Assembly: GCF_018863195.1 (NCBI RefSeq)
Contig: NZ_JAHKRT010000001.1
Location: 310,001-374,000, forward strand
DNA: 64,000 nt
From: Sphingomonas quercus
GTDB lineage: Bacteria; Pseudomonadota; Alphaproteobacteria; Sphingomonadales; Sphingomonadaceae
Reading direction: 5' to 3'
In this document: positions 29,874 to 45,106 of the stretch, one piece after another
Layout: each line of letters opens with the position of its first letter
Position numbering within the stretch: the stretch's first letter is position 1
Notes under the pieces: model-generated
Databases searched by the model: none
What the model was told of the DNA's origin: nothing
What the model saw: only the letters and a program-made list of their open reading frames with translations
Program-made: the position numbers and the translations under genes

Positions 29874-29893
29874 GCCGCTCATCCTGCTGCACG

Positions 29894-29929
29894 AAAAGAG
29901 AGGTCGGCCTCAGGGTCGGCCTCTTTTTT
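29894..29929 (+). terminator. Rho-independent terminator after opgH
   Basis: Stem GAGGTCGGCC (29900-29909), loop TCAG, stem GGTCGGCCTC (29914-29923), then six T. Flanking A residues pair with the T-run, extending the helix to about 16 pairs with three G-T wobbles. It lies 20-50 nt after the opgH stop and is the clearest plus-strand terminator of the opg operon. Confidence 0.85.
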
Positions 29930-29944
29930 ATGTCTGAATGAGTA

Positions 29945-30005: not shown

Positions 30006-30021
30006 TGTGATTTGCATCACA
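30006..30021. promoter_or_regulatory. CRP-like operator upstream of nupC
   Basis: TGTGATTTGCATCACA: the half-sites TGTGAT and ATCACA are exact inverted repeats around TTGC, matching the CRP consensus TGTGA-N6-TCACA at all ten fixed positions. It sits in a short AT-rich stretch (29995-30046), the only one in this region, 145 bp before the nupC start. A CRP/FNR-family regulator binding here is the natural inference. A promoter may follow in the AT-rich stretch, where TATATC lies at 30041-30046. Confidence 0.7.
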
Positions 30022-30165
30022 TTTTTCGTGTTTTTGTATTTATATCTGGCCGCAATTGAATCTGACCGCCCGGCGGCCTCGCCGTTTGCCGGGAGGGGCT
30101 GGCGTGGGCTCGCGGCGCGTGGCAATTCTCCGGCGCAATCCTGCCCGGAGCTCCCTGCCGCACTC

Positions 30166-31407
30166 ATGCACAAGCTCGTCATCGGCATCGCCGGCATCGC
30201 CCTCATCCTGGGCATCGCCTTTGCGCTGTCCGCCAACCGTCGCCATATTCGCCTGCGGGTGGTCGGCTCCGCTTTCGCGCTTCAGGTCGGCATCGCCGTG
30301 CTGGTGCTCTATGTGCCGGCCGGACGTGCCATCATCGGCTGGATGTCGGCGGGCGTCGGCAATCTCCTCTCCTATGCGCAGGAGGGAACGAATTTCCTGT
30401 TCGGCGCCTTCGCCACCTCCGAGCTTGGCAAGAATTTCGCCATTCAGGCGCTGCCGGTGATCATCTTCTTCGCGGCCCTTGTCTCGATCCTGTATTATCT
30501 CGGCGTCATGCAGGCCGTTGTCCGGTGGATCGGCGGAGGCATCGAGAAGGTGATCGGGGTCAGCAAGGTGGAGTCGCTGTGCGCCGCGGCAAACATCTTC
30601 GTCGGCCAGTCGGAAAGCCCGCTGGTCATCCGCCCCTATCTGCCGGGCCTCACCCCACCGCAGCTGTTCGCGGTGATGACCAGCGGCATGGCCGGCGTCG
30701 CCGGCACGATCCTCGCGGCCTATGCTTCGATGGGCATCCGCATCGAATATCTGCTGGCGGCCTCGTTCATGTCCGCGCCGGGCGGCCTGCTGATGGCCAA
30801 GATGATCATGCCGGACGATCCGCACCTGCCGCTCGACCGGGTGGTGGAGGTAGCGGATTCGCCGCATTCCCCCGGCCACCCCGAGGAGCGCGACGCCAAT
30901 ATCATCATGGCCGCCGCGTCCGGCGCGCAGACCGGCGTGAGGCTGGCGGTGGCGGTTGGCGCGATGGTGCTGGCCTTCGTCGCGCTGGTCGCGCTGGCCA
31001 ACGGCATCCTCGGCGGCATCGGCCACTGGTTCGGCCTTGAGGGGCTGAGCTTCCAGCGGCTGCTCGGCTTCCTGTTCGCGCCGGTGATGTACCTGCTCAA
31101 CGTGCCGTGGAACGAGGCACTGGCGGCTGGCGGCCTGTTCGGCGAGAAGGTCGTGCTCAACGAGTTCGTCGCCTACATCCATCTCGGCCAGATCGCCGGT
31201 CAGCTCAGCGCGCATACCATCGCCGTGGTCACCTTCGCGCTGTGCGGCTTCGCGAATTTCTCCTCGATCGCCATCCAGATGGCGGTGACTGGCAGCCTCG
31301 CGCCTTCCCAGCGGCCGACCATCGCCCGGCTGGGCGTGAAGGCGCTGGTTGCCGGCAGTCTCGCCAACCTGATGTCGGCGGCGCTGGCCGGCCTGCTCAT
31401 CCCCTAG
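30166..31407 (+). CDS. nupC: Concentrative nucleoside transporter (NupC/CNT family)
   Basis: A 413-residue inner-membrane symporter that imports nucleosides with protons or sodium. About nine to ten hydrophobic segments are visible. Family motifs: NIFVGQSESPLVIRPYL (substrate-binding G-Q-S/T-E-x-P), MTSGMAGVAGTILAAYA, FMSAPGGLLMAKMI, KVVLNEFVAY and FALCGFANFSSIAIQ. ATG 30166 starts the first membrane segment (HKLVIGIAGIALILG); no close ribosome site is seen. The 5' region has a CRP-like operator, as known for E. coli nupC. The phoD gene follows after 21 bp, probably in the same transcript. Confidence 0.95.
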   Translation: MHKLVIGIAGIALILGIAFALSANRRHIRLRVVGSAFALQVGIAVLVLYVPAGRAIIGWMSAGVGNLLSYAQEGTNFLFGAFATSELGKNFAIQALPVIIFFAALVSILYYLGVMQAVVRWIGGGIEKVIGVSKVESLCAAANIFVGQSESPLVIRPYLPGLTPPQLFAVMTSGMAGVAGTILAAYASMGIRIEYLLAASFMSAPGGLLMAKMIMPDDPHLPLDRVVEVADSPHSPGHPEERDANIIMAAASGAQTGVRLAVAVGAMVLAFVALVALANGILGGIGHWFGLEGLSFQRLLGFLFAPVMYLLNVPWNEALAAGGLFGEKVVLNEFVAYIHLGQIAGQLSAHTIAVVTFALCGFANFSSIAIQMAVTGSLAPSQRPTIARLGVKALVAGSLANLMSAALAGLLIP

Positions 31408-31428
31408 AGGCCCCCGGGAGTGGCTGCC

Positions 31429-32973
31429 ATGCTATCGCGCCGCCGGTTCCTTGCCGCCACGGCAGCGGTATCGCTGGGCGCGCCGGCCGTGCTGCGCGCC
31501 CAGCCGATGCGCTTCGCCGCATGGCCGTTCCGGCTTGGGGTAGCCGCGGGCGATCCGACCAGCGACGGCATGGTGCTCTGGACCCGCCTCTGCCCGGAGC
31601 CGGCCGACGTGCGCGGCGGCATGCCGATGACGCCGATCGCGGTGAGCTGGGAGGTCGCCACCGACAAGGCCTTCGCCAGCATCGTTGCGAGCGGCGAGGC
31701 AACCGCCTGGCCGGACCTCGCCCACAGCGTCCATGTCGAGGTGGCGGGGTTGCAGCCGGACCGGCCCTATTTCTACCGCTTCCACTGCGGCGGCGAGCGC
31801 AGCGACACCGGCGCCGCGCGCACCCTCCCCGCCCCGGGCGCGGCGGTGGGGCGGATACGCTTCGCGGTTGCCGGCTGCCAGCAATATGAGGACGGCCTCT
31901 ACACCGCCTGGCGGCGCTTGGCTGCCGATCCGGACCTCGCCTTCTGCTATCACTTTGGCGACTATATCTACGAGAACCGCGAATATCTCTCGCCCACCGA
32001 TCGCGCGCGCGCGCCGGCCGTCCGTCACCACGACGCGCCGGAGTGTTTCAGCCTCGACGATTATCGGCGCCGCTACACGCTCTACAAGCAGGATGCCGAC
32101 CTCCAGGCGGCGCATCGCGCCCTCGCGATGTTCCCGACCTTCGACGATCACGAGGTGCAGAACGACTGGACGTCGAACCACGGCCCTGCCGGCACCCCGC
32201 CCGAAATCTTCCTGCTTCGGCGCGCCAGCGCATTGCAGGCGTGGTACGAGCATATGCCGGTGCGTGCCCGCTCGATGCCGCATGGCGGAATGATCGAGAT
32301 GGCCCGGTCGGCGCGGATCGGCACGCTGCTCGACCTGCGGCTGCTCGACACCCGCCAGTTCCGCACCGCCCAGCCGTGCGGCGGCGGCTTCCGGCCGGTC
32401 TGCGCGGGGATCAACGACCCGGGCGCGCAGATCATCGGCGGACCCGCCGAACAGGCGCTGGCCAAGGCGTTGGCCCGGCCCGAGACGCGCTGGACGGCGC
32501 TCGCCCAGCAGGTGATGATGATGGATCTGGACCGTCGCACCGCCGACGCACCGTCAAAGATCGTCAATATCGACACCTGGGCCGGCTATGCGGTGCCGCG
32601 CGCGCGCGTGCTTGATCATCTCGGCGGCCGCGGCGACGTGGTGGTACTGACCGGCGACGAGCATCAGAATTTCGCGGGCCATCTCCGTGATTCAAGGGGC
32701 AGGACGGTGGCGGTCGAGTTCGTCTCCACCTCGATCAGCTCCGGCGGCGATGGATCGGACAAGCGCTCCGGCACCGACAGGATACTCGCCGAGAATGACT
32801 GCCTGACCTTCATGAACGACCAGCGCGGCTTCACCGTCTGCGAGGTGACGCCGGATCGCTGGAGCACCGATTTCATGGTCCTCGACCGGGTCTCGTCGCC
32901 GGGGGGCACGTTGTCCAGGCGCGCGCGTTTCTCCATGGAGCGCGGCAATCCGATGCTGGTGCAGGACGCCTGA
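31429..32973 (+). CDS. phoD: Alkaline phosphatase D (PhoD), Tat exported
   Basis: A 514-residue phosphodiesterase/phosphomonoesterase. SRRRFLAATAAVSLG is a classic twin-arginine signal, as expected for PhoD, which is exported folded with Ca and Fe. The PhoD N-terminal domain (about 35-130, FRLGVAAGDPTSDGMVLWTRL) is followed by the metallophosphatase domain with VAGCQQYEDG, HFGDYIYE, TFDDHEVQNDW and LTGDEHQNF, which hold the metal ligands. ATG 31429 has GGGAG 9 nt upstream. It follows nupC by 21 bp. PhoD releases phosphate from nucleotides and other esters in the periplasm. Confidence 0.96.
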   Translation: MLSRRRFLAATAAVSLGAPAVLRAQPMRFAAWPFRLGVAAGDPTSDGMVLWTRLCPEPADVRGGMPMTPIAVSWEVATDKAFASIVASGEATAWPDLAHSVHVEVAGLQPDRPYFYRFHCGGERSDTGAARTLPAPGAAVGRIRFAVAGCQQYEDGLYTAWRRLAADPDLAFCYHFGDYIYENREYLSPTDRARAPAVRHHDAPECFSLDDYRRRYTLYKQDADLQAAHRALAMFPTFDDHEVQNDWTSNHGPAGTPPEIFLLRRASALQAWYEHMPVRARSMPHGGMIEMARSARIGTLLDLRLLDTRQFRTAQPCGGGFRPVCAGINDPGAQIIGGPAEQALAKALARPETRWTALAQQVMMMDLDRRTADAPSKIVNIDTWAGYAVPRARVLDHLGGRGDVVVLTGDEHQNFAGHLRDSRGRTVAVEFVSTSISSGGDGSDKRSGTDRILAENDCLTFMNDQRGFTVCEVTPDRWSTDFMVLDRVSSPGGTLSRRARFSMERGNPMLVQDA

Positions 32974-33063
32974 TCCCGCCGGCCCACGGGGCGTATCCCG
33001 AATGCCACAGTCGGCAACAGATATTGGCGCGATTGCGGGCTTCTTCGCCAACTTGCTGCAACT

Positions 33064-33081
33064 GCGTCATCAATCTGTCAA
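33064..33081 (+). promoter_or_regulatory. Pho-box-like site upstream of the TonB receptor gene
   Basis: GCGTCAT (33064-33070), spacer CAAT, CTGTCAA (33075-33081). Against the PhoB consensus of two CTGTCAT repeats 11 nt apart, 11 of 14 positions match, and the spacing is exact. It lies about 97 bp before the receptor ATG and 91 bp after the phoD stop. PhoB control would fit the neighbouring alkaline phosphatase. A single match found by eye is not proof. Confidence 0.45.
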
Positions 33082-33177
33082 ACGCGCGCCCCAAGGGCAG
33101 CGCAATGCGGGCCAGTCTCCGGATTAGCGCTCTCCATCGGCGAGAATCGGGCTCGCCAAACCAACCAGGGGGTTGAA

Positions 33178-36100
33178 ATGCGTAACTATCTTCTTGGAAC
33201 GGCCGGCATGGCGATCGCCATGGCGGTGGTGTCGCCTGCGTCTGCGCAGGAAACCACTTCGTCCATCCGCGGCAGCGTGAACTCGGCCGGCACGCCGGTC
33301 GCCGGCGCTTCGATCACCGTCACCCACACGCCGTCGGGCACGGTGTCGACGGCGACGACGGACGCCGCCGGTACGTTCAACGTCACCGCGCTGCGCGTCG
33401 GCGGCCCCTTCACTGTCGCCATCTCGGCGCCGGGCTATTCCAACGCCACCGTCACCGACATCTTCACCGTCGTCGGCCAGCCGTTCAGCCTGCCGGTGGA
33501 GCTCGCCAGCGCCGGTCAGGAGATCGTCGTCACCGCCTCGTCGATCGGCGCGCGTACCGTCAGCCAGGGCCCGCAGACCGTCCTCACCACGGCCGACATC
33601 GCCAATGTCGCCACGATCAACCGCGACATCCGCGACCTGATGCGCCGCGATCCGTTCGCGCGTCTCGACGACACCCCCTCGGGCGGCCGCGCCATCTCCT
33701 TCGCCGGCCAGAATGCCCGCTTCAACCGCTTCACGGTGGACGGCGTGCCGATCACCGACAATTTCGGCCTCAATCCAGACGGTCTGCCGAGCCGCCGCTC
33801 GCCGATCCCGCTCGACGCCATCGGCCAGTTCCAGACCAAGGTCGCGCCCTATGACGTGCGCGAAGGCAATTTCCAGGGCGGCACGATCAACGTCGTGCTC
33901 CGTTCCGGCACCAATGATTTCCAGGGCACCGGCTTCTTCTCCTATTCGTCGGACGAACTGACCGGCAAGAAGACCAAGGCCGGTCCGGGCGTGCCGACCG
34001 GCCGCGTCGTCCAGCCGAATTTCGAGATCAAGAATTACGGCGCCGAGCTGTCCGGCCCGATCATCAAGGACAAGCTGTTCTTCATGGTCGCCGGCGAACG
34101 CATCCGCGCCCCACGCCCGATCGCCGAAGGTCCCGGCGACAACAATGCCGGCACGGCCATTCCGACGCTCTCCCAGGCCCAGGTCGACAAGATCAGCGGC
34201 ATCGCCAAGTCGAAGTACGGGTATGACACCGGCGGCGTCGTCAGCAGCAATGGCGACAAAGACGACCGGCTGGTCGCCAAGATCGACGCCAACCTCACCG
34301 AGAAGCACCGCGCCTCGCTGACCTTCACCTACGCCAAGGACTCGATCGTCCTCACCAACAACACGGTGGCGACGCCGAGCGCGCCGTCGCTGGGTCTCGC
34401 GTCCAACGCCTATCTGCAGGGCAACAAGCTCTACACCGGCGTCGCCCAGGTCAATTCCGAGTGGAGCGACAGCTTCTCCACCGAGGTCCGCGGCTTCTAC
34501 AAGGACTATACCCGCATCCAGGACCCGCTGATGGGCCGCGGCTTCGCCGAGATGCGCGTCTGCACGGCGCAAGACTCCGATCGCAACAATCCCGGCGCGG
34601 CCGGCAGCGGCGCGTCCACCACGTGCGCCCCGGGCTCGGCGGTGGTCGCGTTCGGCCCCGACGTCTCACGCCAGACCAACGCGCTCCATACCGAAACCTT
34701 CGGCGGTATGGTCCAGGGCCGGCTGAACGTCGCCGAGCACGACATCCGCCTGTTCACGGAGTTCCAGTACACGAAGGTGTTCAACGCCTTCCTGAGCAGC
34801 TCCAACCCGCGTGGCGGCACCAGCGGCACCTATTATTTCGACTCCATCACCGACTTCCAGGCCGGCAACGCCCAGCGCTTCGGCTATACCAACGCGGTGC
34901 CGACGGCGAACCCGGACGATGCCTCGGCCCGCTTCGCCTATGCCAGCTACGTGTTCGGCATCCAGGATACCTGGCGCATCAACGACATGCTGACCGTGTC
35001 CTATGGCGGCCGCTACGACCTTTACGGCAGCAAGAGCCGCGCCGCGATCAACCCGGCCTTCACCAGCCGCTACGGCTTCCCGAACAACGAGTTCATCAGC
35101 GGCCGGGGCATCTTCCAGCCGCGCCTGGGCATCGAGTTCAAGCCCGATCGTCGCCTGTCGGTACGCGGCGGCGTCGGCATCTTCTCCGGCGGCATGCCCG
35201 ACGTCTACACCTCGAACAGCTTCTCCAACACCGGCATCCTGTCGAATACCATCGACATCAGACAGGAGAATAACGGCAGCTACACCGGCAATTCGACCTT
35301 CCCGGCGGGCTTCCAGCCGCAGGCGATCCTGACCAACGTCAACGGCGCGGCGATCCCCGCGACTGCCAACCAGTATCTCGTCGGCGGCGTTTCGGCGGCG
35401 GCGACCAACGCCGTCGATCCGAAGTTCAAGGTGCCGTCCCAGTGGCGCGGCACCCTGTCGGCGGATTACGACCTCAATCTCGGCGCGCTCGGCGATCACT
35501 GGGATATCGGCGGCGACCTGTTCTACTCCAAGGTTCGCAACCAGGTGTTCTTCAAGGACATCCGCCTGACGCCACTCGCGTCGACGACGCCGGACGGCCG
35601 CGTCCGCTACGGCTCGCTGACCACGTTCAGCGACACGCTGAACGACATCCTGCTCACCAACACCAGCAAGGGCCGCAGCTACGTCGCCGTCGCCCGCATC
35701 CGCAAGGCATGGGATTTCGGCCTCGAGGCGGGCGTCAGCTACACCTACCAGAACATCAAGGACCAGACCCCGGCGACCTCGTCGACGGCCGGCTCCAACT
35801 ACGCCAACGGCGCGTTCCTGGACGGCAATCTCGCCGCCTACGGCACGTCGAACGACGAGGTGAGGCACAACTTCAAGTACGACGTCACCTTCGAGCGCGC
35901 CTTCTTCGGCGACTACAAGACGACCATCGCCCTGTTCGGCGAAACGCGCATCGGCCGTCCGTACAGCTACACCTTCCAGGATACGTCGAGCGGCCGCTCG
36001 GCCCTGTTCGGCACCACCGGCTCGACGGCGCGCTATCTGATCTACGTGCCGAGCGGCATCGACGATCCGCGCGTGTCCTATGACTCGGCGGCGACCGCCT

Positions 36101-36522
36101 CGGCGCTGGATGCGTTCTTCAAGTCCTCGGGTCTTGCCAAATATCGCGGCCGGATCGCGCCGCGTAACGCCTTCAACTCCAGGTGGTTCACGCGCATCGA
36201 CCTGCACTTCGCGCAGGAGGTCCCGACCTTCCTCGGCCGCTCGCGGATCACCTTGTTCGCTGACGTGGAGAACTTCACCAACCTGCTCAACAGCAAGTGG
36301 GGCCAGATCCGCGAATACGCCTTCCCCTATACCTCGGTGGCGGCGCGCGTGCAGTGCCTGGTAACCCCGGCCGCGACCGGCACGCCCGGCACCGTCGCCA
36401 CCAACACGTCGCAGGCGTGCGGCCAGTATCGCTACAGCATGCCCAACGCGACGCCGAGCGACACGATCTACAGCAACCAGTCGCTCTACGCGATCCGCGT
36501 CGGCGCCCGCTTCACCTTCTAG
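33178..36522 (+). CDS. Oar-like TonB-dependent receptor with carboxypeptidase-regulatory-like domain
   Basis: An 1114-residue outer-membrane protein. Signal peptide about 1-24 (AMAVVSPASAQ). A CarboxypepD_reg/PEGA-like beta domain spans about 28-105 (SIRGSVNSAGTPVAGASITV, then AAGTFNVTALRVGGPFTVAI). A plug follows about 110-235 (EIVVTA, RDLMRRDPFARLDD, RFTVDGVPITDNFGLN, GGTINVVLRSGTNDF), then a 22-strand-type barrel to the terminal Phe (IRVGARFTF). This is the Oar architecture, with no siderophore-type features. ATG 33178 has AGGGGG 5 nt upstream. Its neighbours phoD and nupC, and the Pho-box-like site, suggest an organophosphate-related substrate. A strong terminator follows. Confidence 0.9.
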   Translation: MRNYLLGTAGMAIAMAVVSPASAQETTSSIRGSVNSAGTPVAGASITVTHTPSGTVSTATTDAAGTFNVTALRVGGPFTVAISAPGYSNATVTDIFTVVGQPFSLPVELASAGQEIVVTASSIGARTVSQGPQTVLTTADIANVATINRDIRDLMRRDPFARLDDTPSGGRAISFAGQNARFNRFTVDGVPITDNFGLNPDGLPSRRSPIPLDAIGQFQTKVAPYDVREGNFQGGTINVVLRSGTNDFQGTGFFSYSSDELTGKKTKAGPGVPTGRVVQPNFEIKNYGAELSGPIIKDKLFFMVAGERIRAPRPIAEGPGDNNAGTAIPTLSQAQVDKISGIAKSKYGYDTGGVVSSNGDKDDRLVAKIDANLTEKHRASLTFTYAKDSIVLTNNTVATPSAPSLGLASNAYLQGNKLYTGVAQVNSEWSDSFSTEVRGFYKDYTRIQDPLMGRGFAEMRVCTAQDSDRNNPGAAGSGASTTCAPGSAVVAFGPDVSRQTNALHTETFGGMVQGRLNVAEHDIRLFTEFQYTKVFNAFLSSSNPRGGTSGTYYFDSITDFQAGNAQRFGYTNAVPTANPDDASARFAYASYVFGIQDTWRINDMLTVSYGGRYDLYGSKSRAAINPAFTSRYGFPNNEFISGRGIFQPRLGIEFKPDRRLSVRGGVGIFSGGMPDVYTSNSFSNTGILSNTIDIRQENNGSYTGNSTFPAGFQPQAILTNVNGAAIPATANQYLVGGVSAAATNAVDPKFKVPSQWRGTLSADYDLNLGALGDHWDIGGDLFYSKVRNQVFFKDIRLTPLASTTPDGRVRYGSLTTFSDTLNDILLTNTSKGRSYVAVARIRKAWDFGLEAGVSYTYQNIKDQTPATSSTAGSNYANGAFLDGNLAAYGTSNDEVRHNFKYDVTFERAFFGDYKTTIALFGETRIGRPYSYTFQDTSSGRSALFGTTGSTARYLIYVPSGIDDPRVSYDSAATASALDAFFKSSGLAKYRGRIAPRNAFNSRWFTRIDLHFAQEVPTFLGRSRITLFADVENFTNLLNSKWGQIREYAFPYTSVAARVQCLVTPAATGTPGTVATNTSQACGQYRYSMPNATPSDTIYSNQSLYAIRVGARFTF

Positions 36523-36539
36523 GAACCGGGCCGAGACAG

Positions 36540-36578
36540 AAAAAGGCGGCATCCCGATGGGGTGCCGCCTTTTTCTTT
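36540..36578. terminator. Bidirectional Rho-independent terminator
   Basis: GGCGGCATCCC (36545-36555), loop GAT, GGGGTGCCGCC (36559-36569), flanked by AAAAA on the left and TTTTTCTTT on the right. The full helix is about 16 bp with one wobble. It starts 17 nt after the receptor stop. Because of the A-tract it could also end transcripts from the minus-strand kinase gene. Confidence 0.9.
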
Positions 36579-36685: not shown

Positions 36686-37720
36686 CTATCGCGCGGCGCG
36701 CAGCACCGCGCTCACGCCCACCGCGCGCGGCTCATAGTCGACGCTGGAACGCAGCTGCGCCGCCATGCTGCCGATCAGCTTCGTGCCGAGGCCGGTGCCC
36801 TTGATCTCGCCGTCCTGCATGCCGCGGCCGTCATCCTGCACGCACAGCCGGAAATGATCCTCCCCGTCGGCGGCGAACTCGATCCTCACCGCGCCGGAGC
36901 AATCCTCCGCATAGGCATATTTGCAGGCGTTGCTGACCAGTTCGGTGACGATGATGCCCACCGCCACCGCCTTGTCGGTAGCGAGCCGGATCGGATCGGC
37001 CTCGAGGGTCAGCGAGCGCGGCGCGGCGCTCGTCGACCAGGTCGCGGCGAGCTCGTCGATCAGCGAGCCGAGATAGTCCTTCATGTCCACCACCTCGACC
37101 GAATCCGAGGTGTAGAGCCGCTTGTGGACCTGGGCGATCGCCTGAATGCGCTGCTGCGTGTCGGCGAGCACCGCGCGGGCGGCCTCGTCGGCCACCTCGC
37201 GCGACTGGAGATGGACGAAGGCCGAGGCGAGCTGGAGGCTATTGGCGACACGATGGTTGACCTCGTGCAGCAGCGACTGAAGCCGCTCGTTGCTCTCCCT
37301 CAGCCGCTCTTCCGCGCGGTCGCGCTCGTTGCGCAGGCGGACGGTCTCCAATCCCTGCTCGACGGCGCGCGCCAGCAGGTCGAAGAAATCGTCGCTGACC
37401 GATTTCACCACATAGTCGATGGCGCCGGCCTTGAGCGCGGCGACCGCGATGCGGCTCTCCTCCGATCCGGTGACGTAGATGACCGGCGGCGTCTCCGGCA
37501 GCTCGCGCAGGGCCGCAAGCGTCGCCAGTCCGTCCTGGCCGGGCATGTAATGATCGACCGCGACGAGGTCGAAGCGCGTCTCGGCGGCCTTGGCCACCCC
37601 TTCGGCGCCGCTGGCGGCCAGCTCCACGCGGAAGCCCCGCCGCTCCAGCGCGCGGCGGGTCAGCCGGCGCAGGCCTTCATCATCGTCAATGTAAAGGATT
37701 GCGGGCTTGTCCGTCATCAT
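36686..37720 (-). CDS. Response regulator receiver fused to HWE/HisKA_2-type histidine kinase
   Basis: A 344-residue cytoplasmic protein. A receiver domain (about 5-125) has D12-D14, the phosphoacceptor D56 in VAVDHYMPG, and K106. A coiled linker leads to a HisKA_2/HWE dimerisation motif LLHEVNHRVANSLQL, with H156 in HRVAN as the probable phosphosite, and an ATPase domain (ELVSNACKYAY, DDGRGM, GTGLGTKLI). In such proteins the receiver tunes kinase output, often toward general stress response phosphorelays. ATG 37720 overlaps the upstream stop by 4 nt, making it last in a three-gene coupled cassette. Confidence 0.93.
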   Translation of the reverse strand: MMTDKPAILYIDDDEGLRRLTRRALERRGFRVELAASGAEGVAKAAETRFDLVAVDHYMPGQDGLATLAALRELPETPPVIYVTGSEESRIAVAALKAGAIDYVVKSVSDDFFDLLARAVEQGLETVRLRNERDRAEERLRESNERLQSLLHEVNHRVANSLQLASAFVHLQSREVADEAARAVLADTQQRIQAIAQVHKRLYTSDSVEVVDMKDYLGSLIDELAATWSTSAAPRSLTLEADPIRLATDKAVAVGIIVTELVSNACKYAYAEDCSGAVRIEFAADGEDHFRLCVQDDGRGMQDGEIKGTGLGTKLIGSMAAQLRSSVDYEPRAVGVSAVLRAAR

Positions 37721-38157
37721 TCCTCGATGTCGGGAACCTGGATGACGGACAGGAACAGGCCGAGCTGGCGGATAGCGTCCGCGAAGCTCTCATAATTCAC
37801 CGGCTTGGTGATGTAGACGTTGCAGCCGAGATCATAGCAACGCTGGATCTCCAGCTTGTCGTCGGTCGTCGTCAGCACCACCACTGGCGCGCGCCGAAGC
37901 GGGCCGTCGCTCTTCAGTCGGGCGAGGATGTCGGTGCCGCTCATGTCCGGCAGGTTGAGGTCGAGCAGGATCAGCGCCGGGCCGTTATGCGCGGGGCCAA
38001 CCGGATCCTCGTAGAGAAACTCCAGCGCCGAGGTGCCGTCGGTGAAATGACGAATGTCGTTGAAGATGCCGGCGCGGCGGATGTTCTTCTCGATCAGGCG
38101 GGCATGGCCTTCATCGTCCTCGATCATGACGATGCTGACGGGCTGATGCGTGTTCAT
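37717..38157 (-). CDS. Single-domain response regulator (Rcp1-like)
   Basis: A 146-residue stand-alone receiver. Acidic residues E13-D14-D15, phosphoacceptor D66 in ILLDLNLPDMSG, conserved T95 region (VVVLTTTDD) and K in NVYITKPVNYESF are all present. The loop HFTDGTSALEFLYEDP is typical of Rcp1-type regulators paired with phytochrome-like kinases. It has no output domain, so it probably shuttles phosphate between the kinase upstream and the receiver-kinase downstream. Both its ends overlap neighbours by ATGA. Confidence 0.95.
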   Translation of the reverse strand: MNTHQPVSIVMIEDDEGHARLIEKNIRRAGIFNDIRHFTDGTSALEFLYEDPVGPAHNGPALILLDLNLPDMSGTDILARLKSDGPLRRAPVVVLTTTDDKLEIQRCYDLGCNVYITKPVNYESFADAIRQLGLFLSVIQVPDIEE

Positions 38158-39725
38158 GCAAGCTTTCCTTGTTCGCCGGCAAACACCGCCGGCAGGTTCA
38201 CGCGGAACGTCGCGCCTTCCCCCAGACGCGAGTCTATCGCGATCGTACCGCCAATCCGGTAAGCCAGAGCGCGCACATGCGCTAGCCCGATCCCCTCGCC
38301 GGGCTGGTCCTGCACACCGGAACGCCGGAAAAGATCGAAAATGCGCTCATGATCGCGGGGATCGACACCACGACCGTTATCCGCCACCTCGAACGTCACC
38401 CGCGGCCCGTCGCGCCGGCCCCTGATCTCGATCAGCCCCGGCCGGCCGGGTTTGAGATATTTGACGGCGTTCTCGACAAGGTTCGACAGGATCTGCTCGA
38501 TCGCCAGCCGATCGCAGACGATCTGCGGCAAGGGCTCGTCGACCCTGATCTCGGCGCCGAGTTCCAAGACGCGATGCTGGAGCGATCCGGCGATGGCATG
38601 GGCCATCGCCGTCATGTCCAGCGCCTCCGGCGTCATCGTCCGCCGGCCCTCGCGGGACAGGCGCAGGATGGCGTTGATCAGGCGGTCCATCTTCTGGGTG
38701 GACGTGCGGATGAAGGCGATCGCCTCGGGCAGCTCCTCGCATGCCGCCTCGCGCGCCTCGACGGTGAGCACCTCCGGGGCCTGCGCCTCGACCGTCTCGA
38801 TGAGCGTGGTGATGGTGCGCGTCGCCGCTTCCAGCTCGGCGGTGAAGCCCATCACGTTGACCAGTGGCGATCGCAGGTCGTGGCTGACGATATAGGCGAA
38901 GCGCTGGATCTCGTCATTGGCGCGCTGCAGATCCACGGTGCGCTCGCGCACGGCATCCTCCAGCCCCTCGTTGAGCTTGCGCAGCTGATCGCGCGACGAC
39001 ATCAGCGCCAGCGTGTAGCGCCGGATCACCCACAATGAGCCCACCGCCACCGCTGCCAACATCACCCCTGTCAGCACCAGTGTGACGTAGAACCATGTGA
39101 CCGCGCCCTGTCGCTGGCTTTCGCGCGTCGCCAGCAGGCGCCGCTCCGCCTCGAGCATCCGGTCGCTCATCTGCACCACGGCCGCCGATGCGACCTGCCG
39201 GCGCGCTTCGACCTCGGGGCTGCGATCGCTCCTCGCGGAGAGCGAAAGGCTCATCAGCGCATCAAGCGCGCGCGCGCTTTCACGCAGCCGGCCGACGTTG
39301 GCCTGCTGTTCCGGATTATCGGCGGTGAGCCGCGCCACACGCTGGATCGAGCGATCGAGCAGGCGTGTGGAGGCGACATATTGATCGCGCATCGTCGGCG
39401 ACAGATTGAGCAGCGCGCCGCGGCGCGCGCTGCGCATCTGCTCCAGGGCCAGACGAATGCCGGCGAGCTCGCGCTCCACCTGGTAGGTGTGCGAAATCCA
39501 GTTCGCCCGCTCCTGGCTGCGCGACATGGCGATGCCCGCGACGCCGACCGCGAGCAGCACCGCCGCGAATCCGGCCAGCATGAGCAACAGCACGGTGCGG
39601 CCGAAACGTGCCTCGGCAAGGCTTTGCGGTGTCTCGGTCGTGCTGGCCACGAGCGCACTCGTAGTCGGCGAAACCCCGAGCGCCAATAACCTATCGCAAT
39701 CCCGCCGCCGCTCGCCGGTCGGCAT
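38154..39725 (-). CDS. Membrane sensor histidine kinase with CHASE3-like periplasmic region
   Basis: About 523 residues from ATG 39725. Membrane segments at about 45-65 (TVLLLMLAGFAAVLLAVGVAG) and 215-240 (VTLVLTGVMLAAVAVGSLWVI) flank a helical extracytoplasmic region that resembles CHASE3. A coiled coil follows, then HisKA with SHDLRSPLVNVMGF and an HATPase domain (NLVENAVKYLKPG, DNGRGVDPRD, GEGIGLAHV). This is the phytochrome-type kinase class that pairs with Rcp1-like regulators. The start is uncertain; GTG 39650 would shorten it by 25 residues. It is first in the cassette. Confidence 0.9.
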   Translation of the reverse strand: MPTGERRRDCDRLLALGVSPTTSALVASTTETPQSLAEARFGRTVLLLMLAGFAAVLLAVGVAGIAMSRSQERANWISHTYQVERELAGIRLALEQMRSARRGALLNLSPTMRDQYVASTRLLDRSIQRVARLTADNPEQQANVGRLRESARALDALMSLSLSARSDRSPEVEARRQVASAAVVQMSDRMLEAERRLLATRESQRQGAVTWFYVTLVLTGVMLAAVAVGSLWVIRRYTLALMSSRDQLRKLNEGLEDAVRERTVDLQRANDEIQRFAYIVSHDLRSPLVNVMGFTAELEAATRTITTLIETVEAQAPEVLTVEAREAACEELPEAIAFIRTSTQKMDRLINAILRLSREGRRTMTPEALDMTAMAHAIAGSLQHRVLELGAEIRVDEPLPQIVCDRLAIEQILSNLVENAVKYLKPGRPGLIEIRGRRDGPRVTFEVADNGRGVDPRDHERIFDLFRRSGVQDQPGEGIGLAHVRALAYRIGGTIAIDSRLGEGATFRVNLPAVFAGEQGKLA

Positions 39726-39851
39726 GACCAGCCGATTGCGCCATTCCGGTTCTAGGCAGACGGCCACTGATCGCCGTCGCGGCGCTCCGCTGCGCCGGTT
39801 TCACCCCGGCCCCGCAGGGGGCGACGGATCATTCCGGCGGGGATGGGATGC

Positions 39852-44347: not shown

Positions 44348-45106
44348 TCAGATCCCGTCCGTCACCGGCGCGAACCCGGCCGCCGCCAGCCCCCGGGCGA
44401 GGGCGGCCGCGCAGGCGTCGAGCAGCGCTTCGTCGCTCGATCTCACGACGAAATTCGCCCCCACCCGCCCCTCGCGGAAGAAGGGATAGCTGCCGATCTG
44501 GCAGCCGGGATGGGCGCGCTCCGTCTCGCTCAGCAAATCCGCGACCTCGCTCTCCGCCACCCAGCAGCCGATGGTGCGGCTGATCAGCGGCCGGCCGCCT
44601 TCGAGCGTGCCGGTCAGCGCTTCCAGCATCATGCCGGCGATGTGCGGCACGCCGGCAAGGATGAAGACGTTGCCGATGCGGATACCCGGCGCGCCCGACA
44701 TGCGATTCTCGATCAGCGTCGCCCCTTCGGGCACGCGAGCCATGCGCAGCCGCGCCTCGGTGAGCCCGCCGCGCGCCGCATAATAATCCTCCAGCACCGC
44801 GCGCGCCCGCGGATGGACGATCACCGGCACGCCGAGCGCGGCGGCGATCGCGTCGACGGTGATGTCGTCATGGGTCGGCCCGATGCCGCCGGTGGTGAAC
44901 AGATAGTCATGGGCGGCGCGTAGCGCGTTCACGGCCCCGCCGATCGCCTCGGCGACGTCGGGCACCACGCGCACCTCGGCGAGGCGGATGCCCTGCACGT
45001 TCAGCCACAGAGCGATTTGGGCGATGTTGCGATCCTGCGTGCGGCCGGACAGAATCTCGTCGCCGATGACGATCAGGGCGGCGGTCCAGATACGATCTTC
45101 AGCCAT
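44348..45106 (-). CDS. Molybdopterin-binding domain protein (CinA N-terminal type)
   Basis: A 252-residue protein of the MoaB/Mog fold as found in the N-terminal half of CinA (COG1058). Signatures: ALIVIGDEILSGRTQDRN, then FTTGGIGPTHDDIT (the cofactor loop), and RIGNVFILAGVPHIAGMM. The PncC-type nicotinamide amidase domain of full CinA is absent. Stand-alone CinA-N proteins have been linked to ADP-ribose or FAD pyrophosphatase activity; the role here is not known. It is divergent from map, with 55 bp between the starts. Confidence 0.9.
   Translation of the reverse strand: MAEDRIWTAALIVIGDEILSGRTQDRNIAQIALWLNVQGIRLAEVRVVPDVAEAIGGAVNALRAAHDYLFTTGGIGPTHDDITVDAIAAALGVPVIVHPRARAVLEDYYAARGGLTEARLRMARVPEGATLIENRMSGAPGIRIGNVFILAGVPHIAGMMLEALTGTLEGGRPLISRTIGCWVAESEVADLLSETERAHPGCQIGSYPFFREGRVGANFVVRSSDEALLDACAAALARGLAAAGFAPVTDGI

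Follow-up and report, generated by a model that had tools for sequence, protein, structure and literature searches.

To our knowledge, few of the numerous TonB receptors found in sphingomonads have a known cargo. In Sphingomonas quercus, the gene for one such receptor, of the Oar type, follows genes for a nucleoside transporter (nupC) and a PhoD-type phosphatase (phoD), which raises the question of whether the three products act together. A preliminary description had read them as one nucleotide/organophosphate-scavenging system, with a CRP-like operator before nupC and a Pho-box-like site before the receptor. Here, we report a computational analysis of the locus in the surrounding 64,000 bp (positions 310001 to 374000 of contig C1 in a 3.64-Mb genome; hereafter, the window) and in a sample of 249 genomes of the host's family.

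Gene products and probable transcription unit

The features of the locus, in window coordinates and with their basis in parentheses, were as follows:

29891..29933, + strand, intrinsic-terminator-like hairpin with a T-run, after opgH (mdoH) and before nupC (RNA folding)
30006..30021, + strand, CRP-like palindrome TGTGATTTGCATCACA (pattern scan of window and genome)
30166..31407, + strand, nupC, concentrative nucleoside transporter, CNT/NupC (Pfam/TIGR profiles, PDB 4pb1)
31429..32973, + strand, phoD, PhoD-type phosphatase/phosphodiesterase with a Tat-type signal (Pfam/NCBIfam profiles, PDB 2yeq)
33064..33081, + strand, Pho-box-like direct repeat GCGTCAT-N4-CTGTCAA, GCGTCATCAATCTGTCAA (consensus and matrix scans)
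33178..36522, + strand, Oar-type TonB-dependent receptor (Pfam profiles, AlphaFold2 model, Foldseek)
36538..36576, + strand, intrinsic-terminator-like hairpin with a T-run, 3' of the receptor gene (RNA folding)

The three genes were thus present where previously placed, with domain profiles in agreement. The start previously given for the locus, 30006, coincides with the 5' end of the CRP-like site, and nupC itself likely starts at the ATG at 30166; the 21-bp nupC-phoD spacing stands, provided that phoD begins at the ATG at 31429. All three genes run in the same direction, with opgGH (MdoG, MdoH) upstream and a response-regulator/histidine-kinase gene, convergent with the receptor gene, downstream. 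The convergent stretch (36686 to 39767) encodes a HisKA_2/HWE-type kinase with a receiver, a stand-alone receiver, and a CHASE3 kinase.

Full-length CNT domains of NupC exceeded curated cut-offs (450 bits for TIGR00804, whose cut-off is 442; PF07662 and PF01773 matched), and its best PDB match, the NupC family protein 4pb1 (E, 9.4e-124), aligned over the length of the protein. PhoD matched PF09423 (303 bits) and PF16655, with alkaline phosphatase D (2yeq; E, 3.5e-126) as the best PDB match, aligned across the catalytic part; because it did not reach the cut-off of the NCBIfam equivalog AlkPhosPhoDBac (496 bits against 1000), it was filed as PhoD family and not as that equivalog. Its N terminus, MLSRRRFLAATAAV, holds a putative twin-arginine (Tat) type signal, which agrees with the previously proposed Tat export.

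The receptor begins with a signal-peptide-like stretch, followed by a carboxypeptidase-like N-terminal domain, the sequence EIVVTA (presumably a TonB-box-like stretch), a plug, a barrel, and a C-terminal F. Its N-terminal carboxypeptidase-like domain, plug, and barrel are those of an Oar-type receptor; CarboxypepD_reg and OMP_b-brl_4 scored above their cut-offs, and Plug and TonB_dep_Rec scored slightly under theirs. The PDB held no sequence match for the receptor. Its AlphaFold2 model (mean pLDDT, 76.9) adopts a predicted TonB-receptor fold, and the 50 Foldseek matches listed all carried titles of TonB-type outer-membrane receptors or of SusC.

Both outer hairpins, which the preliminary description did not mention, were more stable than any of 200 shuffles (29891 to 29933, −25.7 kcal/mol, z of −6.1; 36538 to 36576, −32.3 kcal/mol, z of −7.6), and the nupC-phoD and phoD-receptor gaps folded no better than shuffles. 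From these strong outer hairpins and inner gaps of ordinary folding, nupC, phoD, and the receptor gene are predicted to form, probably, a single transcription unit. A consensus scan found no sigma-70 promoters and flagged neither outer hairpin as a terminator; having missed both hairpins, its silence means little.

A literature search, thin on subscription journals, found no published description of the nupC-phoD-Oar set, in keeping with the earlier remark that no description of it as one system was known. The nearest published analogue found is the Flavobacterium PUS (PusCD) loci, in which, in the available part of the source, a TonB-dependent outer-membrane transporter lies beside phosphomonoesterases/phosphodiesterases, in some cases with inner-membrane transporters, and for which the authors propose the use of phosphodiesters, e.g., lipid head groups and nucleic acids (PMC8115612). 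The window locus likewise has a TonB receptor gene beside a phosphatase gene but differs from PUS, as far as that text goes, in including a nucleoside CNT transporter and in its Oar-type receptor, whereas PusC is SusC-like and accompanied by a SusD lipoprotein (PMC8115612). The Pfam matches of the window receptor were not SusC-type, and none of the 16 proteins or stretches scanned, 15 of them from the window, matched SusD in Pfam; the SusC/SusD pair of PUS was thus not found. Similarly, in the text examined, the Caulobacter PhoB regulon places several alphaproteobacterial TonB receptors under phosphate control along with phosphatases, but nupC is not named there and no nupC-phoD-oar unit is described (PMC11208175).

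Neighborhoods of the three genes in relatives

Homologues of PhoD (E ≤1e-60), NupC (E ≤1e-40), and the Oar-like receptor (E ≤1e-60) were found in 67, 193, and 120 of the 249 family genomes, respectively. A simple script, which overlooked genes in G121 and G243, served for gene calling in the relatives. Pair counts used NupC positions from 178 of the 193 NupC-positive genomes; the remaining 15, which include PhoD-positive ones, were omitted. Apart from the window genome, the full trio occurred together in a single genus among the 249 genomes, with NupC placed in 178/193. In that genus, G156 carries nupC, a yhhQ-like gene, and oar, with phoD divergent from oar; G206 has the same arrangement across broken contigs, and G094 has nupC and the yhhQ-like gene with the Oar gene far off. 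In G014, nupC, a yhhQ-like gene, and phoD lie together. A second set comprised 80 named PhoD loci, several of which end early at contig ends and which possibly do not include the window genome; these PhoD relatives were mostly from Sphingopyxis, Sphingomonas, and other sphingomonads, and a single one of the 80 (Sphingomonas solaris, apparently G156 again) had both NupC and this Oar. None of four congeners of the window genome had the trio; their NupC genes lie near a YhhQ-type gene, a neighbor that the window nupC does not have, and their opgH is only 55 to 56% identical to that of the window. In G241, which has the closest orthologue of the window receptor (77%), neither nupC nor phoD lay within the 19 kb examined, and the gene of this orthologue sits before a LytTR two-component pair. 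Conserved adjacency, the test set beforehand, therefore failed, since the exact trio recurred in one further genus only. As a family-wide conserved system, the trio is ruled out by the 249-genome survey and the 80 named loci.

Pairs of the genes did recur. NupC and an Oar-like receptor lay ≤5 kb apart in 53 of the 107 genomes with both placed. PhoD and Oar were ≤2.5 kb apart in 5/34 genomes, from four lineages (window, G156/G206, G091, and G226), for a rough expectation of 0.14 (P of about 1e-5 for 4 or more). NupC and PhoD were within 2.5 kb in 2/56 genomes (P, about 0.015), within 5 kb in 3/56 (P, about 0.004), and within 10 kb in 4/56. These chance expectations rest on an assumed genome size of 3.6 Mb with 1.5 gene pairs in each genome and take no account of kinship, and because the counted rows are related genomes, the P values overstate independence.

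Separate rearrangements may have brought nupC, phoD, and the receptor gene together, leaving a proximity with no functional meaning. A nearly private trio, a nupC without its congeners' YhhQ-type neighbor, and a phoD that stands apart from oar in 29/34 genomes and from nupC in 53/56 would all fit such an origin; we nonetheless consider it clearly unlikely, given pairings above rough chance, the bracketing hairpins, and the nupC-phoD gap of 21 bp.

The PhoD-Oar pairs of G091 and G226, which have no NupC nearby, suggest another explanation, in which phoD and the receptor gene form a general phosphate-ester scavenging pair (for lipid head groups, sugar phosphates, or phytate-like esters) and nupC is a neighbor for nucleoside salvage (carbon/nitrogen) under its own CRP-like control. 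It agrees with a Pho-like site (12/14) between the divergent phoD and oar of G156 and G206, with the breadth of substrates of PhoD enzymes in the part of the source available (PMC6950083), and with the Caulobacter PhoB regulon, whose TonB receptors and phosphatases appear in the text examined with nupC unnamed (PMC11208175). It also agrees with the surroundings of the genome's second phoD (C9:211000-229000, L050), beside glycerophosphodiester phosphodiesterase and TonB-receptor-type genes. The outer hairpins around gaps with no unusual fold, and the position of NupC beside Oar-like receptors on several branches, also where PhoD is absent, tell against this pair, which we regard as rather unlikely.

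In the Oar tree (quick method, some long branches), the window receptor grouped with G241, and the window, G156, and long-branch G138 fell in the other half from most NupC-linked Oars; the G223 Oar, not included in the tree, was also nearer to the window's type. From this position of the window receptor, nupC and phoD probably joined its branch separately. Seven loci (L038, L172, L173, L176, L177, L180, and L183) had an Oar of the window's half near a LytTR-type response regulator and its kinase, as judged from clustering and, for L172 alone, from Pfam. The NupC tree joined the window row to deo-linked and congener rows in a supported group of 9, with the branching inside it unsettled. Of the three NupC homologues closest to the window protein, two (G027 and G046, but not G107) are flanked by a pyrimidine-phosphorylase (deoA-type) gene and a deoC-type gene (L034 and L045), while the window genome has no PYNP_C match.

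A 2OG-Fe(II) dioxygenase gene stood between nupC and Oar in 22 of the 53 NupC-Oar genomes, all 22 from opened loci (18 of 20 fetched; G234 and G193; and, by tblastn, G243 and G223). No such gene separates these neighbors in the window, G156, or G206, and the rest comprised G121, opened with its middle genes not called, and 27 genomes not opened. The best solved relative of the dioxygenase was 3oox, with thymine dioxygenase lower, and a TonB_C gene follows the run in some loci (one member scanned). In loci L152 to L171, L047, L048, and L214, the nupC-dioxygenase-Oar run has Pho-like repeats before the receptor. It thus resembles the window locus in joining NupC and an Oar-type receptor behind such repeats but has the dioxygenase in the middle place taken by phoD in the window, and its receptors are mostly only about 32 to 39% identical to the window receptor. 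This run is possibly a nucleoside-modifying uptake system.

Promoter elements

The CRP-like palindrome TGTGATTTGCATCACA matches with 0 mismatches, lies about 145 to 160 bp upstream of the nupC ATG, and is the sole exact TGTGA-N6-TCACA in the window and in the 3.64-Mb genome, where the backward-read control also occurred once. The operator claimed before nupC is therefore an exact site, but no counterpart with up to 2 mismatches was found in the 350 bp upstream of any of the 10 other NupC genes scanned. Three Crp-type helix-turn-helix matches were found in the window genome, and the exact palindrome is single although three such proteins are encoded.

The Pho-box-like repeat GCGTCATCAATCTGTCAA begins 114 bp ahead of the receptor gene and matches the consensus at 11/14 bases. 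A repeat does precede the receptor as claimed, but the window count is at chance level (4 matches against 2.3 expected; as many in 25/100 shuffles), and one of the other matches, at 45100, fits the consensus better. With a matrix, the site scored 12.5 bits, reached by 4.3% of the upstream regions of other genes; the matrix was built from two further strings and four pstS sites of other genera, of which one is only 11 bp before its assumed start and another falls within the longest reading. The window phoD had no Pho-like site of its own, nor was there one upstream of the G241 orthologue of the receptor. A pre-receptor stretch common to G094 (local score, 33; shuffles, ≤27) covers the first Pho half-site only, and the other five relatives compared shared no stretch with this region.

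Across the Oar genes, whose rows are related genomes and not independent trials, upstream matches of ≥11/14 were found for 18/48 against 33/624 other genes, the latter partly from regions picked for Pho-like sites. At ≥8 bits of the matrix, the counts were 37/48 for Oar, 5/9 for PhoD, 5/29 for NupC, and 67/558 for other genes, the 558 being without such picked regions. Given these comparative data, the Pho-like site of the window receptor is a plausible candidate. The dual CRP/Pho control proposed before stays conjectural, the CRP-like site being private to the window genome among those scanned and the window Pho site moderate.

Two further elements differed between gene groups. TGTAAC occurred upstream of 10/21 NupC-linked Oar genes, 3/27 other Oar family genes, and 6/614 other genes; TGCAAC occurred upstream of 12/27 Oar genes of the window's tree half against 47/614 and may be the true control element of that half. 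TGCAAC also lay 121 to 143 bp before several close Oar genes of the LytTR-linked loci. The pstS of the window genome carries a triple repeat (CTGTCAC, GCGTAAC, and ATGTCAT) in 11-base steps. An E. coli-like Pho pattern, with 10 genome matches, was of little use as a regulon list and was set aside; two of its matches, C10:29129 and C11:7944, lie near genes that by eye resemble TonB receptors, the former also near a gene that by eye resembles a phospholipase C.

A possible nucleotide-scavenging unit

Our tentative reading, which we hold to be quite possible, is that nupC-phoD-Oar is a self-contained nucleotide-scavenging unit, an analogue of phosphate-utilization loci aimed at nucleotides. Powered by TonB, the Oar-type receptor would carry phosphorylated nucleosides or short pieces of nucleic acid through the outer membrane. 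PhoD, once exported, would remove phosphate in the periplasm, and NupC would take up the nucleosides by cation symport; the freed phosphate would be left to the Pst system (the window genome encodes a PstS-type protein). Expression of nupC would respond to carbon state via the CRP-like site, and that of the receptor would respond to phosphate starvation. The receptor substrate, the PhoD substrate at this locus, both control modes, and the joint action of the three proteins are what we infer here.

This scavenging unit gains from the recurrent, differently arranged pairs, which are spread over separate branches of the Oar tree, the Pho-like repeats, the domain and structure matches, the outer hairpins, and the deo-linked NupC homologues, as well as from a Cobetia PhoD that, in the part of the source available, frees phosphate from CMP, GTP, UMP, AMP, and others (PMC6950083). 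It is weakened by the unconserved trio (0/4 congeners), by the G241 receptor without nupC, phoD, or a Pho-like site, by the window Pho site at chance level and the phoD without a site, by the lack of a PF07831/PYNP_C (deoA-type) match in the window genome, and by the same Cobetia enzyme, which in that text cleaved neither DNA nor oligonucleotides (PMC6950083). The functional idea first proposed gains from the recurrence of the pairs and the Pho-rich promoters of Oar genes, whereas the exact trio is not conserved and its dual control stays conjectural. A broader version, in which the Oar receptors of the family are phosphate-controlled nucleotide/oligonucleotide transporters modularly coupled to NupC and an interchangeable enzyme (dioxygenase or PhoD), the window holding the phosphatase version, seems doubtful.

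From the recurrent link of Oar with NupC and PhoD comes a guess at the substrate of Oar-type receptors that is concrete enough to test. The trio is rare, yet similar pairings arose several times in relatives, so the idea merits testing; if true, it would explain how dissolved nucleotides could serve sphingomonads as a source of both phosphorus and nucleosides.
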